Shown piece by piece: positions 8,432-16,046 of a stretch of DNA of 64,000 nt. The notes under the pieces were generated by a model. The model made no database searches. It saw only the letters and a list, made by a program, of their open reading frames with translations, and was not told where the DNA came from. Each line of letters opens with the position of its first letter. The stretch's first letter is position 1. The position numbers and the translations under genes were made by a program. This stretch comes from Acidobacteriota bacterium (GTDB taxonomy: Bacteria; Acidobacteriota; Thermoanaerobaculia; Multivoradales; JAGPDF01), in contig JACTMI010000028.1 of the NCBI GenBank assembly GCA_014584695.1, positions 1 to 64,000 on the forward strand, read 5' to 3'.

Positions 8432-9028
8432 TCAGCGCGGCGTTTCGCGAATGAACAGCGCTTCGCCGTCTTCCGTGAGGGTGAGGAGGAGAATGCGCCC
8501 AGGTGCGAGGTCGATCGGGGTGTCGAGGTGGAGCGCGGGGAGCGCGGCGTAGGCGGAGAGGAGGTCCGGGGGGGAGTCCGGGGGTGGGGGGGCGGGGGCG
8601 AAGTGGAGCTCGAGGTGGCGCCGGCCGGCGGGGGTGGGGAGGGTGGCTTCGACGGCCAGCGGGCGGGTGCGACGCAGGCCGCTGGGGGAGACCGTGCGGG
8701 CGAGGCGCTCGGTGCCGTCGAGCTTCACGGTGAGGTGATAGTCGAGCGCGGTCTCGGTGCAGATCCTCGGGCTGCGCATGTGGATCGGCAGCGCTTCGAG
8801 CTCCCGCGCGGACGGCTCGCGGCAGACCTCCAGACGTGCGTGCGTGGTGCGGAGCGCCAAGCGGAGGGCGGCGTCTCGGGGCGGCTCGCCGAGCGGGACG
8901 CGGGCGACCAGCGCGGTGCCGGCGACCAGCGCCAGCGAGACGACGGCGCGTAGCGCCAGCGTGGCGGCGCTCGGTCGCGCCTCCGGCGCCGGCCGTGGCG
9001 GATTCGGAGCCGCGAGGCGCTCAGCCAC
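8432..9028 (-). CDS. Membrane-anchored hypothetical protein, last gene of oxidase operon
   Basis: A 198-residue protein starting with a GTG that overlaps the end of the cytochrome b-ferredoxin fusion by 8 bases, so it is translationally coupled to the respiratory operon. It has one membrane segment at about residues 25-45 (ALRAVVSLALVAGTALVARV) and a periplasmic domain of about 150 residues with three Cys, but no CXXCH or copper motif. The domain has no family I recognise. Position suggests an assembly or accessory factor for the oxidase complex. This is inference from context only. Confidence 0.7.
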   Translation of the reverse strand: MAERLAAPNPPRPAPEARPSAATLALRAVVSLALVAGTALVARVPLGEPPRDAALRLALRTTHARLEVCREPSARELEALPIHMRSPRICTETALDYHLTVKLDGTERLARTVSPSGLRRTRPLAVEATLPTPAGRRHLELHFAPAPPPPDSPPDLLSAYAALPALHLDTPIDLAPGRILLLTLTEDGEALFIRETPR

Positions 9029-10625
9029 GACCCGCTCCCACCGCGACGGGAGTCGCCGCCGTCGTCGTCGCGCACTCGATCTCCGGCTCCGCGGCGTCGA
9101 CCGGCGGCGGGGCGAGCGCGGTGACGCGGGCGGCGAGCTCGGCGATCGCGCGCGCGGCGGCGGCCGACTCCGAGGCCGAGAACGAGGCGAAGGCGATCCG
9201 GCGGCGGTCCACCCGCTCCGGAAGCTCCGCCTCGCGGCCGTCGAAGAGCCGGGCCGCGAGCCACTTCGGGCCCTCTCTGAAGCGGCAGTCGCGCGGCGGG
9301 CAGGTCAGGAGCAGCACGCCGCCCAGCCCCTGTCGCAACGCCAGCTCCACTCCCGCGGTGTGGATGCTGCCCGCGCACGGCACCGTCTCCACCAGCACCC
9401 CCGGCCGCTCGAACGCCGAGCGCTCGCGGACGACGCCGTTGCGGCAGCCGAGCACCAGGATCTCCCGGCCGGTGAGCGCGGCGCCGGCCAGCCGTGCTCT
9501 GAGCGCCGCCAGCTGCTCCCGCCCGGTCCAGTCCGTCGGGCCCACCCCCATCGGCGCGCAGGCCGCCGCGCAGATGCCGCAGCCGACGCAGCGCGCCGGG
9601 TCCACCCAGGCGACCGTCGCCGAGCGGGCGAGGCCGGCCGTGCGCGGCACCATCGTGATCGCCTCGTAGGGGCAGTCTCGCGCGCACGACTCGCAGCCCG
9701 TGCAGCGGTCCTGGTCGACCGACGAAACGCGGATCGGCGCGCGCGACCGCCAGATCCAGGCGAGCGCGGTCAGGCCGCCGAAGAGCGCCAGCCAGAAGAG
9801 CGCCTGCGCCGCCGGCCCGACGCGCCGCGCCAGCGGCAGCCAGAAGGCGTAGAGCAGGTCGGTCGGCACCTCGCCGGGGAGCGCCAGCAGGTCCGCCGCC
9901 GGGCCGATCCCCGCCGGCACCAGGATCGCCGCGAGAGCGAGCGCCGCGAGCGCCCAGCGCCGCACCGGCGGCGGCGGCAACCAGACCGGCCGCGCCACCC
10001 GCGAGACGTGCAGCCAGAGCAGCGCCGCCAGGCCGAGCGGGATCGCCACGTGGAGAAAGAGATTCATGAAGAAGAACGACGACGGCACCGGCTGCGCGCC
10101 GTCGAAAGCGCGCGCCAGCGGCTGCGACATCACCGGCAGCAGATCGATCAGCCGGGTGCCGCGCGCCGCGATCTCGAGCCCCTGCGTGTCCCAGACCATG
10201 ACCAGGCCGGTCCAGCCGCAGGCGAGCAGCGTGCCGAGCAGCACCACGCCGCTCACCCAGGCGAGGACGCGCGGGCCCCAGGTGTGGCCGGCGAGCAGCT
10301 TGCGGACCAGGTGGACCGCCGCCGCGACGATCGCGAGATCCGCGCTCAGCCGGTGCAGCGAGCGGACCCAGGCGCCGAGGAAGATCTCGCGCTCGATGCG
10401 CAGCACCGACTCGTAGGGCTCGGCGATCCGGTAGAAGAGGAAGAGGTAGAGCCCGGTCGCGATCGAGACCAGCAGACAGAGGACCGCGAGGTTGCCGCTC
10501 TGGTGGAGCGGATTCCAGCGCGAGCCGTAGATCCGGTCGAACAGGCGCTCGAGCGGCGCCACCGCGCGCTCGAGCCAGCGCGCCGCCGGCGGCGGGGCGG
10601 CCGGGCCGCCCCGCGCCGAAGTCAT
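9021..10625 (-). CDS. Cytochrome b-ferredoxin-FlpD-like fusion protein
   Basis: A 534-residue three-part protein. Residues about 45-215 are a cytochrome b N-terminal domain with four heme ligands as two H-x13-H pairs (His91/His105 and His192/His206). Further membrane helices lie at about 223-290. Residues 305-360 hold two [4Fe-4S] motifs, CTGCESCARDCP (Cys308-318) and CVGCGICAAAC (Cys346-356). The C-terminal part (about 388-460) resembles FlpD/MvhD, with VLGCRNG, VPCAGS and TCPPRDCRFREG (Cys394, 417, 442, 447). It probably passes electrons between a quinone or cytochrome and iron-sulfur carriers on the membrane. It overlaps the SCO gene by ATGA and the next gene by 8 bases. The arrangement is unusual. 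Confidence 0.85.
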   Translation of the reverse strand: MTSARGGPAAPPPAARWLERAVAPLERLFDRIYGSRWNPLHQSGNLAVLCLLVSIATGLYLFLFYRIAEPYESVLRIEREIFLGAWVRSLHRLSADLAIVAAAVHLVRKLLAGHTWGPRVLAWVSGVVLLGTLLACGWTGLVMVWDTQGLEIAARGTRLIDLLPVMSQPLARAFDGAQPVPSSFFFMNLFLHVAIPLGLAALLWLHVSRVARPVWLPPPPVRRWALAALALAAILVPAGIGPAADLLALPGEVPTDLLYAFWLPLARRVGPAAQALFWLALFGGLTALAWIWRSRAPIRVSSVDQDRCTGCESCARDCPYEAITMVPRTAGLARSATVAWVDPARCVGCGICAAACAPMGVGPTDWTGREQLAALRARLAGAALTGREILVLGCRNGVVRERSAFERPGVLVETVPCAGSIHTAGVELALRQGLGGVLLLTCPPRDCRFREGPKWLAARLFDGREAELPERVDRRRIAFASFSASESAAAARAIAELAARVTALAPPPVDAAEPEIECATTTAATPVAVGAGRG

Positions 10626-11566
10626 GCCCGCTCCCGTTCCAGCCGCGCGACCGCGCCCACCAGCCAGCTCGCCGGCGGGTTGAGAAAGCGGAACGCGATC
10701 CGCCCTTCGCCGTCGAGCACGAAGACCAGGCCGGGGTGAGTGATCTCGCCCGTGGCCTCGTCGCGGACGGCGCCGAGCCCGTAGGCCTCGTGCACCGCCA
10801 GCACCTCCTCGACCGCGCCCGAGAGGAGCCGCGCTCCGGGCACCGCGGCGACACCCCAGGCCTGGGCCAGCGTCGGCAGCGACGAAGGGGTGTCGCGCCA
10901 GGGATCCAGGGTGACGAAGAGCGCGGTGGCGCGCGGACCGGCGCGCTCGCCGGCGAGGCGCACCGAGCGAACCAGACCCGGACAGACCGTGGCGCAGTGG
11001 GCGTAGGCGAAGGTGACGATCGCCGGCTTGCCCGCGAGCGCCGCGGGCTCGAGCCGCGCGCCGTGCTGGTCGACGAGCGGGATCGCCGGCGCCGGATCGA
11101 ACGAGCGGGGATAGGCCGCGGGCAACGGCTCGCCCTCCGCCGCCGAGAGCGCCACCGGCCCCGCCGACAGGCGCGCGATCTCCGCCCGCCGCTCGATCAG
11201 CCAGGCGCCGGCCAGGAGCGGCGGTAGCGCCACCGCGCCGAGCAGCACCGCCCCCGCCGCGGTGCCCGAGAGGCGGCGGCTCCAAGCCGCGAGATCGCGC
11301 CCCCAGACCGCGACCAGGAAGACCAGAATCGACAGCGGGCTCGCCACCAGCAGCATCCAGCCCCAGGTGTCGGGGAGGCCGCCCGGGGGTGAGCCGAAGC
11401 AGACCGCGCGGGCGCGGTCGAGCCACTCCGGCGGCGCCGGCAGGGGAGCGAGCGCCATCCCCCACCAGGCCGCCGTGGCGGCGAGCCAGCCGAGGAAGCC
11501 GAAGGCCGCGAAGCGCGAAGGGCTCCTCGAGACCGGCGGCGGCGAGGTAGGGGCGAGCGCGAGCAT
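10622..11566 (-). CDS. SCO1/SenC-family copper chaperone with membrane N-terminus
   Basis: A 314-residue protein. Residues 18-125 contain three predicted membrane helices. The C-terminal thioredoxin-fold SCO domain (about 155-314) has the copper site Cys191-x3-Cys195 (HCATVCPG) and His277 (ITHPGLVFVLD). SCO proteins deliver copper to the CuA centre of oxidase subunit II, which is encoded two genes upstream and has intact CuA ligands. The gene lies 15 bases after subunit I and overlaps the cytochrome b fusion by ATGA. The multi-helix N-terminus is longer than the single anchor of classic SCO1. Confidence 0.88.
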   Translation of the reverse strand: MLALAPTSPPPVSRSPSRFAAFGFLGWLAATAAWWGMALAPLPAPPEWLDRARAVCFGSPPGGLPDTWGWMLLVASPLSILVFLVAVWGRDLAAWSRRLSGTAAGAVLLGAVALPPLLAGAWLIERRAEIARLSAGPVALSAAEGEPLPAAYPRSFDPAPAIPLVDQHGARLEPAALAGKPAIVTFAYAHCATVCPGLVRSVRLAGERAGPRATALFVTLDPWRDTPSSLPTLAQAWGVAAVPGARLLSGAVEEVLAVHEAYGLGAVRDEATGEITHPGLVFVLDGEGRIAFRFLNPPASWLVGAVARLERERA

Positions 11567-11581
11567 GGTGGATCCTCCCTC

Positions 11582-13366
11582 TCAGCCCATCTTCCAGAGC
11601 ATCGACAGCACCTTCCAGTTGGTGAAGTAGTAGAGGATGAAGACCGCCAGGAAGACGAACACCAGGATGACGGTGCCGGGGGCGCCGGCGCGATGGGCGG
11701 CGGCCGAGGCGTCGACGTCGTGCAGTTGCGGCGGCAGCCGGACGATCCCCTGCGGCACGCCGGGCTCGCCGGGCTGCAGGCGCTCGAGCGCCACCGTGTC
11801 GCCGAAGAAGACCGACTTGACCGCGATCGCGATGTAGAGCAGGACGGCGATCGCGGCGAGGGTGCCGCCGATGCCGATCCCCGCCATCAGCAGGTCGACC
11901 ACCGGCGGCAGCTCGAGCGTGAAGGGCGCGTTGGGGAAGGTGATGTCGGCGTGGCGGCGGGGCACGCCAAAGCTGCCGGCGAAGGTCATGCTGACCGACA
12001 TCAGGGCGATGCCGGCGCCGAACAGCCACGGCTGCCAGCGCGCCGCCCGCCAGAAGGCGACCCGGCGCTTGAAGACGAGCGGCAGCAGGTAGTAGGTGAG
12101 CGCCATGAACGCGAGCGCCGTGCCGCCGACCACCGTGACGTGGAAGTGCCCCGGCACGCGCAGCGTGTTGTGGGCGATCAGATTGATCTGCTCGGTGCCC
12201 TGGGTGACGCCGGTGATGCCGCCCATGAAGCCGAAGATCACCAACGACAGGAAAGTGCCGGAGAAGCCCGGGTCCGACCAGGGGGCCCGGCGCAGCCAGT
12301 CGAAAGCGCCGCGCGTGAAGCCGCGCAGTCGCATCCCCATCTCCATCCCCGCCGGCACGGTGAAGCCGTGGATCATCGAGGCGAGCACCGCGAGATACAT
12401 CGCGTAGCTGGTGTTCCAGACCTTCCAAGCCGGGCCCATGCCCGGGTCGACCAGCAGGTGGTGGGCCGAGGCCATCGAGATGAACAGCACGTAGAGGACG
12501 AAGGCCCAGCGGCTGACCTTCTGGTTGACCACCACCGCGCCGATCGTCAGCGCGCCCATCAGGTACCAGACCGAGACCATTGCCGCGACGTTGATCTGCT
12601 GCGAGGAGTGGCCGAGCGCCCAGAACATCAGCCGGTAGACCTGCGGGTCGATCTCCATCATCCCCATCGACCAGAGGAAGGCGGGGATGTAGATCGCCGC
12701 GCCGTGCAGCAGCGTGATCACCGCGATGATCGCGGCGGTCAGCGCGCCGAACGTGACCAGCGGCACCGAGCCCTCGTAGCTCCTCTCCCGCTTGGCGACC
12801 ACCAGCGAGGCGAAGAAGAGGCCGACCGCGATCAGCGCCCCGACCGCGAACAGGATGATCCCCAGGTAGTAGAGGGGATGGGCGCGCAGCGGCACGTAGG
12901 AGGTGAACAGCACGTCGGCCCGCCCCCACAGCACCACGAAGTCGACCAGCAGGGCGCCGGCGAGCATCAGGGCGAAGCCGGTCCAGGCCGTCTTGGGCGC
13001 CGGCTGCCGGGCGTTGAGCAGGATCGGTCCGGCGAAGTAGAGGATCGCCATCTCGAAGAAGATGATGAAGAAGATCAGCATGTTGAGCCCGTGCAGGGTC
13101 AAGATGCGGTAGTACCAGACCGGATCGAGCAGGTGCACCGCCTGCCAGCGGGTGAGCGCCAGCAGCAGCGCCGCCACCGCGCCGACCAGGAAGAAGACCA
13201 CGCCGGCGACCGCGTTCCAACGCACCAGCCGCTCGGAGTCGCGGTTGACCACCAGGCCGGTGACCGGGCAGACGCGGGCGAGCGCGCGCCAGAGGAAGTT
13301 GCCATCGCCACCGGCTTGGTTGCCCGGCGCCGCGGCGCCGGGGAGAGCTTCGCTGACGGTGCTCAT
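11582..13366 (-). CDS. Heme-copper oxidase subunit I, eNOR-like (active-site Tyr replaced by Gln)
   Basis: A 594-residue polytopic protein with about 13 membrane helices. Heme and copper ligands are visible: His92 (LHGLNML), His253 (LGHSSQQ), His302/His303 (AHHLLVDP), and His407/His409 (VPGHFHV). Overall it resembles B-type (ba3-like) subunits. In O2 reductases of A and B type the motif after the copper His is HPEVY, with Tyr cross-linked to His. Here the same position is Gln257 (HSSQQ). As I recall, Tyr-to-Gln replacement is a hallmark of the proposed eNOR family, whose Rhodothermus marinus member reduces NO. An unusual O2 reductase cannot be excluded. The start overlaps subunit II by ATGA. 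Confidence 0.88.
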   Translation of the reverse strand: MSTVSEALPGAAAPGNQAGGDGNFLWRALARVCPVTGLVVNRDSERLVRWNAVAGVVFFLVGAVAALLLALTRWQAVHLLDPVWYYRILTLHGLNMLIFFIIFFEMAILYFAGPILLNARQPAPKTAWTGFALMLAGALLVDFVVLWGRADVLFTSYVPLRAHPLYYLGIILFAVGALIAVGLFFASLVVAKRERSYEGSVPLVTFGALTAAIIAVITLLHGAAIYIPAFLWSMGMMEIDPQVYRLMFWALGHSSQQINVAAMVSVWYLMGALTIGAVVVNQKVSRWAFVLYVLFISMASAHHLLVDPGMGPAWKVWNTSYAMYLAVLASMIHGFTVPAGMEMGMRLRGFTRGAFDWLRRAPWSDPGFSGTFLSLVIFGFMGGITGVTQGTEQINLIAHNTLRVPGHFHVTVVGGTALAFMALTYYLLPLVFKRRVAFWRAARWQPWLFGAGIALMSVSMTFAGSFGVPRRHADITFPNAPFTLELPPVVDLLMAGIGIGGTLAAIAVLLYIAIAVKSVFFGDTVALERLQPGEPGVPQGIVRLPPQLHDVDASAAAHRAGAPGTVILVFVFLAVFILYYFTNWKVLSMLWKMG

Positions 13367-13980
13367 GGTGCCTCCTCGGTGGCGAACTGGACGCGCGGAG
13401 CCGCGGGCGCGAGCGCGGCGCTCTTGGCCGCCGGCTCGACCAGGATCCGTCCCAGCATCTGGTGATGGCCGATGCCGCAGAATTCGTTGCAGATGATCCG
13501 GTACTCGCCGGGCTGGTTCGGGGTGATGCGCAGCCCGTAGTCGTAGCCGGGGATGACCTGGATGTTGAGGTTGGCCGGGTAGAGGCCGAAGCCGTGGTTG
13601 ACGTCGAGCGCCGAGAGGTGGAGGGTGTAGGTCGCCCCCTCCTGCAGCACCAGCGCCGGATACCAGCGCCACATCTGGCCGAGCATGTAGACATCGGCGC
13701 CGGGCGGCGGCGCCACCAGCGGCATGCCGTTCTCCTCGCCGATCTTGTAGTCCTCGACGAAGCGGAAGGTGCGCGAGAGGAAGTCGGCGGGCGCGACCTT
13801 GGTGCGGATGCCGGAGGGGTTCTGACCGCCCTTCAGGTGCCAGAAGGGCATCATCGCGAACAGCACCAGGCACCAGCAGAAAGCGATCGCGATCCAGAGC
13901 CGCTCCTGACGGCCGGCCGGCTGCCACCAGTTGCCGCGCGGCGCCACGAGTCCGGAACCGAGCTGCGAGCCCGCGCTCAC
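13363..13980 (-). CDS. Heme-copper oxidase subunit II with CuA
   Basis: A 205-residue protein. One membrane helix lies at about residues 28-46 (LWIAIAFCWCLVLFAMMPF). A cupredoxin domain (about 90-185) carries a complete CuA site: His129 (DVNHGFG), Cys164, Cys168, His172 and Met175 (CNEFCGIGHHQM). Subunit II takes electrons from cytochrome c or another periplasmic donor and passes them to subunit I. It starts at a GTG overlapping the small subunit's stop codon by four bases, and its end overlaps the subunit I start. Confidence 0.93.
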   Translation of the reverse strand: MSAGSQLGSGLVAPRGNWWQPAGRQERLWIAIAFCWCLVLFAMMPFWHLKGGQNPSGIRTKVAPADFLSRTFRFVEDYKIGEENGMPLVAPPPGADVYMLGQMWRWYPALVLQEGATYTLHLSALDVNHGFGLYPANLNIQVIPGYDYGLRITPNQPGEYRIICNEFCGIGHHQMLGRILVEPAAKSAALAPAAPRVQFATEEAP

Positions 13981-14144
13981 GGCAGCGTCCCCGCCGGCAG
14001 CAGGGCGATCTCGAGCAGCCCCCAGCCGGTGTAGAAGAGGAGCATCACCAGCAGCCCCGCCGCCAGGAGGAGGAAGGGCCGGTCGAACAGCCGCTGTCCG
14101 AGCGGCGGCGGGGTCTCGTCGGTCGTCGCGCGATCCGGGGGCAT
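13977..14144 (-). CDS. Small single-helix oxidase subunit (subunit IIa-like)
   Basis: A 55-residue protein too short for most gene callers. It has one membrane helix (PFLLLAAGLLVMLLFYTGWG) after a short Pro-rich head. A strong GAAGGAGGG ribosome-binding site precedes the ATG. Its position at the head of the operon and its size fit the IIa/CbaD-type subunit that accompanies ba3-like oxidases. It overlaps the subunit II start. Confidence 0.75.
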   Translation of the reverse strand: MPPDRATTDETPPPLGQRLFDRPFLLLAAGLLVMLLFYTGWGLLEIALLPAGTLP

Positions 14145-14205: not shown

Positions 14206-14236
14206 AGGACCGACCAGGTCCTATGACGACGGTCAT
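14206..14236. promoter_or_regulatory. Two adjacent palindromes between divergent operons; one CRP/FNR-like
   Basis: Two inverted repeats lie back to back in the 147-bp region between the minus-strand oxidase operon and the plus-strand aminotransferase. The first is AGGACC-N5-GGTCCT at 14206-14222. The second is ATGAC-N4-GTCAT at 14223-14236, a 5-4-5 layout like FNR/DNR-type operators (TTGAT-N4-ATCAA). It sits about 80 bases from the first oxidase gene. I infer an operator; no -35/-10 can be assigned with confidence. Confidence 0.4.
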
Positions 14237-14291: not shown

Positions 14292-16046
14292 ATGGCGACG
14301 GCGGCGGACCGGCAGGCGCTGGTGGAGCTGGTGCGGGCCTCGATCCTGGGCGACGACCAGGCGCTCGACGGGCCCTTCGGGCCGCGCCGGATCACCTACG
14401 CCGACTACACCGCTTCCGGCCGTTCGCTCGGCTTCCTCGAGGACTTCCTGCGCTCGGAAGTGCTGCCGCGCTACGCCAACACCCACACCGAAGCCTCGGG
14501 CACCGGCATGCAGACGACCGCGTTCCGGGAGGAGGCGCGCGGAATCGTCCACCGCGCCGTGGGCGCCTCGGCCGCCGATGTCGTGCTCTTCTGCGGTAGC
14601 GGCGCCACCGGCGCGATCGCCAAGCTGATCGACGTGCTGAACCTCCGCCTGCCGGCCGATCTCGACGCCCGCTTCGGGCTCTCGGCGCGGATTCCTCCGG
14701 CGGAGCGGCCGGTGGTCTTCATCGGCCCCTACGAGCACCATTCGAACGAGCTGCCCTGGCGGGAGTCGATCGCCGAGGTGGTGGTGATCGCCGAGGACGC
14801 CGACGGCCGGATCGATCTCGAGCACCTCCGCCGCGAGCTCGAGCGCCACCGCGGCCGGGCGCTCAAGATCGGCAGCTTCTCGGCGGCGTCGAACGTCACC
14901 GGCATCCTGTCGGACACGGTGGCGATCACGCGGCTCCTGCACGCCCACGAGGCGCTGTCGTTCTGGGACTACGCCGCGGCGGCGCCCTACGTCGACATCG
15001 ACATGAACCCGTCGGCGCGCGACGCCGCGCTCGCCGACGCCGACAAGGACGCGATCTTCCTGTCGCCGCACAAGTTCATCGGCGGGCCCGGCACGCCCGG
15101 CGTGCTGGTGGCCAAGCGCGCGCTGTTCAGGAACCGGGTGCCGACGGTCCCCGGCGGCGGCACGGTCGCCTACGTCAACGCTTTCGAGCACGACTACCTG
15201 CGCGACGTCGAGCACCGCGAGGAGGGGGGGACGCCGGCGATCCTGGAGTCGATCCGCGCCGGGCTGGTCTTCCACCTCAAGGAGGCGGTGGGCGCGGAGA
15301 CGATCGAGCGGCTGGAGAGTGGGTTCGTCCGTCGCGCCCTCGAGCGCTGGCGGGCCCACCCGAAGCTGCGGCTGCTCGGCAGCCTGCAGGCGCCGCGCCT
15401 GTCGATCGTTTCGTTCCTGGTCCGCCACCGCGACGGCTATCTGCATCACAACTTCGTGGTGGCGCTCTTGAACGACCTGTTCGGCATCCAGTCGCGCGGC
15501 GGCTGCTCGTGCGCGGGGCCCTATGGCCACCGGCTGCTCGGCATCGACCTCGAGACGTCGCACCGCTTCGAGCGCGGCATCCTGGCCGGCTGCGAGGGGA
15601 TCAAGCCGGGCTGGACGCGGCTGGGCTTCAACTACTTCCTGTCGGAGGCGGTGTTCGAGTTCCTGCTGGCGGCGGTCGAGCTGGTCGCCGAGCAGGGGTG
15701 GCGGCTGCTGCCGCAGTACCGGTTCGACGCCACGAGCGGGCAATGGCGGCACCGGCAGCGGCCGCTGCGCCCGGCGGCGCGGCTCGGCGACATCCGCTAC
15801 GACCTCGGCCGGATGGACTACCGCTCGATCCACCTCACCGAACCCGAATCGGCGCTCGCCGGCTACCTCGAGGAGGCGCGCCGGATCCTGGCCGCGGCCA
15901 CCGCGGCGCCGGCCGACGGCGATGGTGTCATCGAGCCACTGCCCGAGGAGCTCGAGGCGCTGCGCTGGTTCCCGCTGCCCCACGAGGCCGCCGCCGAGCT
16001 GGCCGGCGCCGGCGGTCCGGCGACGCACTCGATCCTGCGCGGCTGA
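14292..16046 (+). CDS. Class V aminotransferase / cysteine desulfurase-like PLP enzyme, long form
   Basis: A 584-residue PLP-dependent enzyme. The ATG at 14292 gives the conserved N-terminus; an upstream in-frame ATG at 14223 lies in the operator palindrome and is unlikely. The PLP Lys is in LSPHKFIGGPGTPGVL, and the cofactor Asp region is SFWDYAAAAPYVDI. RGGCSCAGPYGH contains Cys residues where cysteine desulfurases have the catalytic loop. The protein is roughly 170 residues longer than SufS/CsdA enzymes, with a C-terminal extension that I do not recognise. Substrate is uncertain. Confidence 0.85.
   Translation: MATAADRQALVELVRASILGDDQALDGPFGPRRITYADYTASGRSLGFLEDFLRSEVLPRYANTHTEASGTGMQTTAFREEARGIVHRAVGASAADVVLFCGSGATGAIAKLIDVLNLRLPADLDARFGLSARIPPAERPVVFIGPYEHHSNELPWRESIAEVVVIAEDADGRIDLEHLRRELERHRGRALKIGSFSAASNVTGILSDTVAITRLLHAHEALSFWDYAAAAPYVDIDMNPSARDAALADADKDAIFLSPHKFIGGPGTPGVLVAKRALFRNRVPTVPGGGTVAYVNAFEHDYLRDVEHREEGGTPAILESIRAGLVFHLKEAVGAETIERLESGFVRRALERWRAHPKLRLLGSLQAPRLSIVSFLVRHRDGYLHHNFVVALLNDLFGIQSRGGCSCAGPYGHRLLGIDLETSHRFERGILAGCEGIKPGWTRLGFNYFLSEAVFEFLLAAVELVAEQGWRLLPQYRFDATSGQWRHRQRPLRPAARLGDIRYDLGRMDYRSIHLTEPESALAGYLEEARRILAAATAAPADGDGVIEPLPEELEALRWFPLPHEAAAELAGAGGPATHSILRG

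Follow-up and report, generated by a model that had tools for sequence, protein, structure and literature searches.

What does a membrane cytochrome b that runs on into two [4Fe-4S] motifs and an FlpD/MvhD domain do beside a heme-copper enzyme bearing the sequence mark of a NO reductase? The question is raised by P0001, the 534-residue product of a frame without internal stop at 9021-10625 (minus strand, as are all the genes of its operon) in the 64,000-nucleotide stretch of Acidobacteriota DNA analysed here (the window). The triple fusion described in the initial annotation is real, all three parts scoring above the curated Pfam cut-offs within this one frame. Cytochrome_B (PF00033) covers the N-terminal four-helix part at residues 40-207 (10005-10508; E 5.8e-21, 75.6 bits against a cut-off of 27.2), Fer4 and dicluster families exceed their cut-offs within residues 299-357, where the two CxxCxxCxxxC motifs occupy residues 303-357 (9555-9719), and FlpD (PF02662) spans residues 409-504 (E 3.5e-12, 46.9 bits against 22.3) of a domain encoded at 9108-9473.

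Profile searches bear out the proposed FlpD/MvhD kinship of the C-terminal domain, which a lack of relationship would have undone. PF02662 is also above its cut-off in the P0001 relatives L027, L030 and L042, and the C-terminal part of P0001 alone matches the solved MvhD subunits 9sw2_D, 8rvv_F, 8rvu_F and 7bkb_F (E 1e-4 to 6e-4), with C417, C442 and C447 aligned to MvhD cysteines. The NCBIfam model for HdrA2 (NF040770) aligns to residues 301-506 only, at 64 bits against a whole-protein cut-off of 1100, and the FAD-binding HdrA body was accordingly not found in P0001. The domain is the sole FlpD domain recovered by a profile search of the source genome, and its setting places FlpD domains beyond the Hdr and hydrogenase systems.

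The heme and cluster ligands are well conserved. Two H-x13-H pairs, H91/H105 and H192/H206, lie in the four-helix part; in the cytochrome b fold each heme is ligated by one histidine from each pair, so that one such pair does not stand for one heme. All four axial histidines are invariant in the 25 homologues aligned, the eight [4Fe-4S] cysteines are kept in 24 of the 25 (the exception being a member without that domain), and the four FlpD cysteines C394, C417, C442 and C447 are kept in 24, 24, 23 and 22 of them. The FlpD site is damaged in two homologues, L024 and L029, of which the former may contain an assembly error. Because relatives in three phyla keep the domain order, a chance fusion is excluded. 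Hydropathy averaged over ten relatives gives six transmembrane helices, and the loops on the side of the N-terminus are richer in basic residues, so that by the positive-inside rule both ends of P0001 are predicted to be cytoplasmic, in agreement with the cytoplasmic placement of the Fe-S part that had been called for. The fusion of a transmembrane helix and periplasmic domain downstream of FlpD in some relatives supports a cytoplasmic position for FlpD.

Helices five and six (9747-9962), which come after the cytochrome b match and before the ferredoxin part, resemble cytochrome b helices E and F. When a profile built from 16 relatives was compared with every chain in the PDB, all 15 matches were to cytochrome b or to subunit IV of b6f, each of them weak (E 0.06-0.7). 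In the same alignment D256 of the ef loop takes the position of the PEWY Glu, and the other positions of the motif vary among relatives. The best matches of the four-helix heme part are cytochrome b6 chains. P0001 thus resembles the b6f complex in pairing a cytochrome b6-like part with the first half of subunit IV; in contrast to that complex it has neither Rieske protein nor cytochrome f/c1, ends after helix F and carries Asp for the PEWY Glu. It also has no cysteine at what we take to be the position that binds the extra heme of cytochrome b6. The source genome has no PF00033 cytochrome b besides P0001, and in 15 of the 20 further carriers searched the counterpart of P0001 likewise stands alone. 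We rejected the idea of a relic or stray bc1 subunit, given this sole occurrence and the constant company of the reductase described below.

That company is a tight six-gene operon (8432-14144), at four of whose five junctions the neighbouring frames have a few bases in common. It begins with P0006 (13977-14144), a small single-helix protein conserved in the cluster and probably subunit IIa-like, followed by subunit II (P0004, 13363-13980) with a complete CuA site, CNEFCGIGHHQM, and by the heme-copper subunit I (P0005, 11582-13366). This B-family-like subunit, whose best PDB matches are ba3 oxidases, carries the motif GHSSQQ, with Gln257 replacing the cross-linked Tyr, and falls in the eNOR class, of which Gln at the Tyr position is the mark (PMC8756737). 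Next come P0003 (10622-11566), a Sco/SenC-like copper assembly protein (PF02630) with an N-terminal membrane part, P0001 itself, and P0002 (8432-9028), with one transmembrane helix and a periplasmic domain bearing an LxxxPxHMR motif. Pfam and NCBIfam searches of the operon genes found no Rieske protein, cytochrome c1/f or cytochrome c. No gene for a cytoplasmic FlpD partner was seen near P0001, and no hydrogenase, formate dehydrogenase, HdrA or HdrB/HdrC gene among those of the cluster. The operon is flanked by P0007 (7193-8317, minus strand), which has a metallo-beta-lactamase fold and begins with a signal-like stretch, and by P0008 (14223-16046, plus strand), a cysteine-desulfurase-like aminotransferase of 607 residues; having no match in any other cluster, both were rejected as parts of the system.

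The pairing of fusion and reductase extends far beyond this contig. Among 396 Acidobacteriota genomes, eNOR occurs in nine (eight genera) and the fusion in ten, the nine eNOR genomes all being common to both, and the tenth fusion is a divergent paralogue in genome G153. Among 143 genomes of one Bdellovibrionota class, eNOR occurs in ten and the fusion in nine, with nine in common; in the unpaired eNOR (G563) the frame is cut and stops near the end of a small contig. Kinship among the genomes inflates these counts, and the two phyla agree. Over 14 loci the distances of P0001 and eNOR correlate (Mantel r 0.89), as joint inheritance would also have them do. Gln was found in 19 of 19 recovered subunit I sequences, two of them from the same genome; the 19 include two plasmid eNORs that have no P0001. 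The association of the fusion with a Gln-type subunit I, which the initial annotation put up for testing, holds almost perfectly in two phyla, with Gln in every recovered partner, but gives way in G153, where a split relative stands beside a cbb3-like operon. Named relatives of P0001 come from the Acidobacteriota (Thermoanaerobaculia and others), the Oligoflexia/Bdellovibrionales and a bin labelled 'Schekmanbacteria'. In that 9.2 Mb assembly (L025, G435) fusion and eNOR lie on different contigs and show an identity like that of Acidobacteriota members, and the label may be wrong.

Natural variants bear on how P0001 is tied to its neighbours. Members of the Bdellovibrionota and of one Acidobacteriota family have the P0002 domain fused behind FlpD via a transmembrane helix, which ties the two products together. 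Searches with P0002 relatives found no convincing relative in Pfam, NCBIfam or the PDB, and P0002 probably represents an undescribed domain family found with this cluster. We dropped the notion of a copper protein, since one member lacks the His of its HM and another lacks both Cys. In one genome only (G525; L104, 8774-9913), the P0002 domain follows cytochrome b directly, the ferredoxin and FlpD parts being absent, and the gene still lies inside an eNOR cluster. This variant shows that the Fe-S arm can be lost and points to cytochrome b as what chiefly ties the protein to the reductase, with the Fe-S branch probably in a secondary role.

On balance, and with modest confidence, we judge that P0001 is probably a dedicated electron-input subunit, fed by quinol and Fe-S carriers, of this clade of Gln-type NO reductases. 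Its six-helix cytochrome b would take electrons from menaquinol, from the cytoplasmic Fe-S arm or from both, and would hand them on at the periplasmic side towards CuA of subunit II, from which they would pass to the NO site of subunit I, while P0002 would hold the periplasmic junction of what may be one complex. The cytoplasmic arm, running from heme bH over both [4Fe-4S] clusters to an FlpD [2Fe-2S] cluster, would offer a second entry through which a cytoplasmic redox protein could load the same path. The direction of flow is likewise part of the model. The operon encodes neither a Rieske protein nor a cytochrome c that could bridge heme bL and CuA, a gap that counts against it. From the Gln and the linkage to NirK, and from these only, we infer NO rather than O2 as the substrate. 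A precedent for such an arrangement is SoxABCD of Sulfolobus, where a heme-copper quinol oxidase has a cytochrome b of its own, SoxC, encoded alongside it. The NCBIfam SoxC model (NF041076) aligns to residues 44-206 of P0001, below its cut-off, and SoxC, unlike P0001, has no ferredoxin or FlpD part.

One alternative is that the cytochrome b links only cytoplasmic Fe-S carriers to the quinone pool, helping to reduce the pool when NO is present, while eNOR is fed separately by a cytochrome c or cupredoxin from alternative complex III. The source genome does hold an operon like that of alternative complex III (NrfD matches; ActB/ActC-like frames in L112), CuA is a normal acceptor site for cytochrome c, and the records of the Thermus and Thermomicrobium plasmid eNORs carry no P0001-like protein, which implies that eNOR is able to work without one. 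Such a division of labour would, however, leave unexplained both the tight association of eNOR with P0001 and the retention, in L104, of cytochrome b and P0002 with eNOR after loss of the Fe-S arm, and we regard it as unlikely. An assembly role, in which P0001 and P0002 would act like Sco and the heme/Fe-S protein would supply electrons for copper or heme insertion rather than for turnover, appears to us highly unlikely: the P0001 gene does adjoin that of Sco, and the small, anchored periplasmic P0002 belongs to no known family, but a six-helix protein equipped with every heme and cluster ligand is more elaborate than such a task would call for, and four heme ligands kept in 25 of 25 homologues point to transmembrane electron transfer.

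The retained helices E and F, with their PEWY-like loop, suggest another use of the same parts, namely quinol bifurcation. Of the two electrons of a menaquinol oxidised at a Qo-like site, one would go to eNOR at high potential and the other over bL, bH and the [4Fe-4S] clusters to FlpD and a cytoplasmic low-potential acceptor. A like scheme has been proposed for the Rieske/cytochrome b complexes of Kuenenia with their cytoplasmic Fe-S NAD(P) oxidoreductase (PMC12954380). Against it stand the lack of a Rieske protein, the replacement of the PEWY Glu by Asp in an otherwise unconserved motif, the loss of the Fe-S arm in L104 and the damage to it in two other members, and the lack of a reductase partner encoded nearby; we consider bifurcation distinctly improbable. 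The same doubt attaches to its corollary, a heme-copper NO reductase complex whose own quinol-oxidising cytochrome b would split electrons between NO and the Fe-S/FlpD arm, such that NO reduction would drive the reduction of low-potential carriers in the cytoplasm.

As in published eNORs (PMC8756737, PMC11388526), subunit I is B-family-like with Gln at the Tyr position in GHxxQQ, subunit II is of the CuA type and the scatter over phyla is wide; those descriptions, however, name two subunits, whereas here Sco, the cytochrome b/Fe-S/FlpD protein and P0002 also belong to the conserved cluster. The C-terminal part of HdrA2 is a ferredoxin plus MvhD (PMC5296606), and in P0001, too, a pair of [4Fe-4S] motifs precedes the MvhD domain; this part is joined in HdrA2 to an FAD-containing HdrA body and in P0001 to a membrane cytochrome b. 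Like P0001, the Kuenenia complexes wire a cytochrome b to a cytoplasmic Fe-S chain (PMC12954380), but they employ a Rieske protein, multiheme cytochromes c and an FAD/NAD(P) subunit where the present cluster has FlpD and a heme-copper NO reductase. Each module of P0001 is a familiar one; QmoB, too, is similar to the C-terminal part of HdrA2.

The view that no complex with this exact domain order had been described needs qualification. A similar order, cytochrome c, cytochrome b6, ferredoxin-type and FlpD, is listed without discussion for RME88945.1 in Table A3 of PMC8756737; for the joint cluster we found no published description in the literature searched, which did not include the 2024 PNAS eNOR paper. 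We claim no priority. PMC8756737 stresses the lack of experiments on eNORs. A cluster conserved in three phyla, which ties a CuA-type NO reductase to a six-helix cytochrome b and a cytoplasmic Fe-S/FlpD chain, now gives a concrete, if putative, electron route into the enzyme. It also serves as a marker by which to recognise a clade whose members probably reduce NO, and hence form N2O, and which standard annotation names cytochrome c oxidase.

NirK lies near the cluster in two genomes. The G224 protein, which bears a cytochrome c tail, is encoded directly beside the cluster together with a NirV-like protein and another Sco, and in G072 NirK lies 2.6 kb from the P0001 homologue. NosZ is over its cut-off in 7 of 14 Acidobacteriota carriers against 2 of 15 non-carriers of the same order, in a sample that was not balanced. 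A profile search of the source genome found neither NirK nor NosZ over cut-off, so the enzyme here may remove NO made by others. Upstream of the operon (14223-14236) lies an operator-like palindrome, ATGACNNNNGTCAT, of the form ATGACnnnnGTCAT, which has no second exact copy in the window. It recurs exactly in three other clusters (L047, L048 and L057), and is thus exact in 4 of 23 upstream regions, the other 19 being without it. Its core, TGACnnnnGTCA, is found in published HcpR sites of NO-stress genes (PMC1274295), a resemblance that hints at a link to NO stress and is suggestive only. FNR-type boxes, TTGATnnnnATCAA, showed nothing consistent upstream of the clusters.

Two further loci show the module in other settings. 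On the Acidobacteriota chromosome G153 (L053, 1861-10300), a cbb3-like oxidase, cytochromes c, a Rieske protein, a cytochrome b, a second cytochrome b fused to two [4Fe-4S] motifs and a separate FlpD-like frame are encoded one after another. They apparently include a Rieske/cytochrome b complex whose Fe-S/FlpD arm reaches into the cytoplasm. A reading of the intervening TGA as a selenocysteine codon was rejected, as the frame ends there and the separate FlpD-like frame comes after it, the pattern of a split gene. The presence of this split module beside a Rieske/cytochrome b and cbb3-like operon shows that it is not exclusive to the Gln-type enzyme, and argues that it is older or wider than the link with eNOR. 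The second locus is a plasmid of Defluviimonas (Alphaproteobacteria; L042), which carries the whole cluster together with cyoE and hemerythrin: a heme o synthase gene lies within the cluster (11709-12590) and a hemerythrin-family gene follows it (15514-15918).
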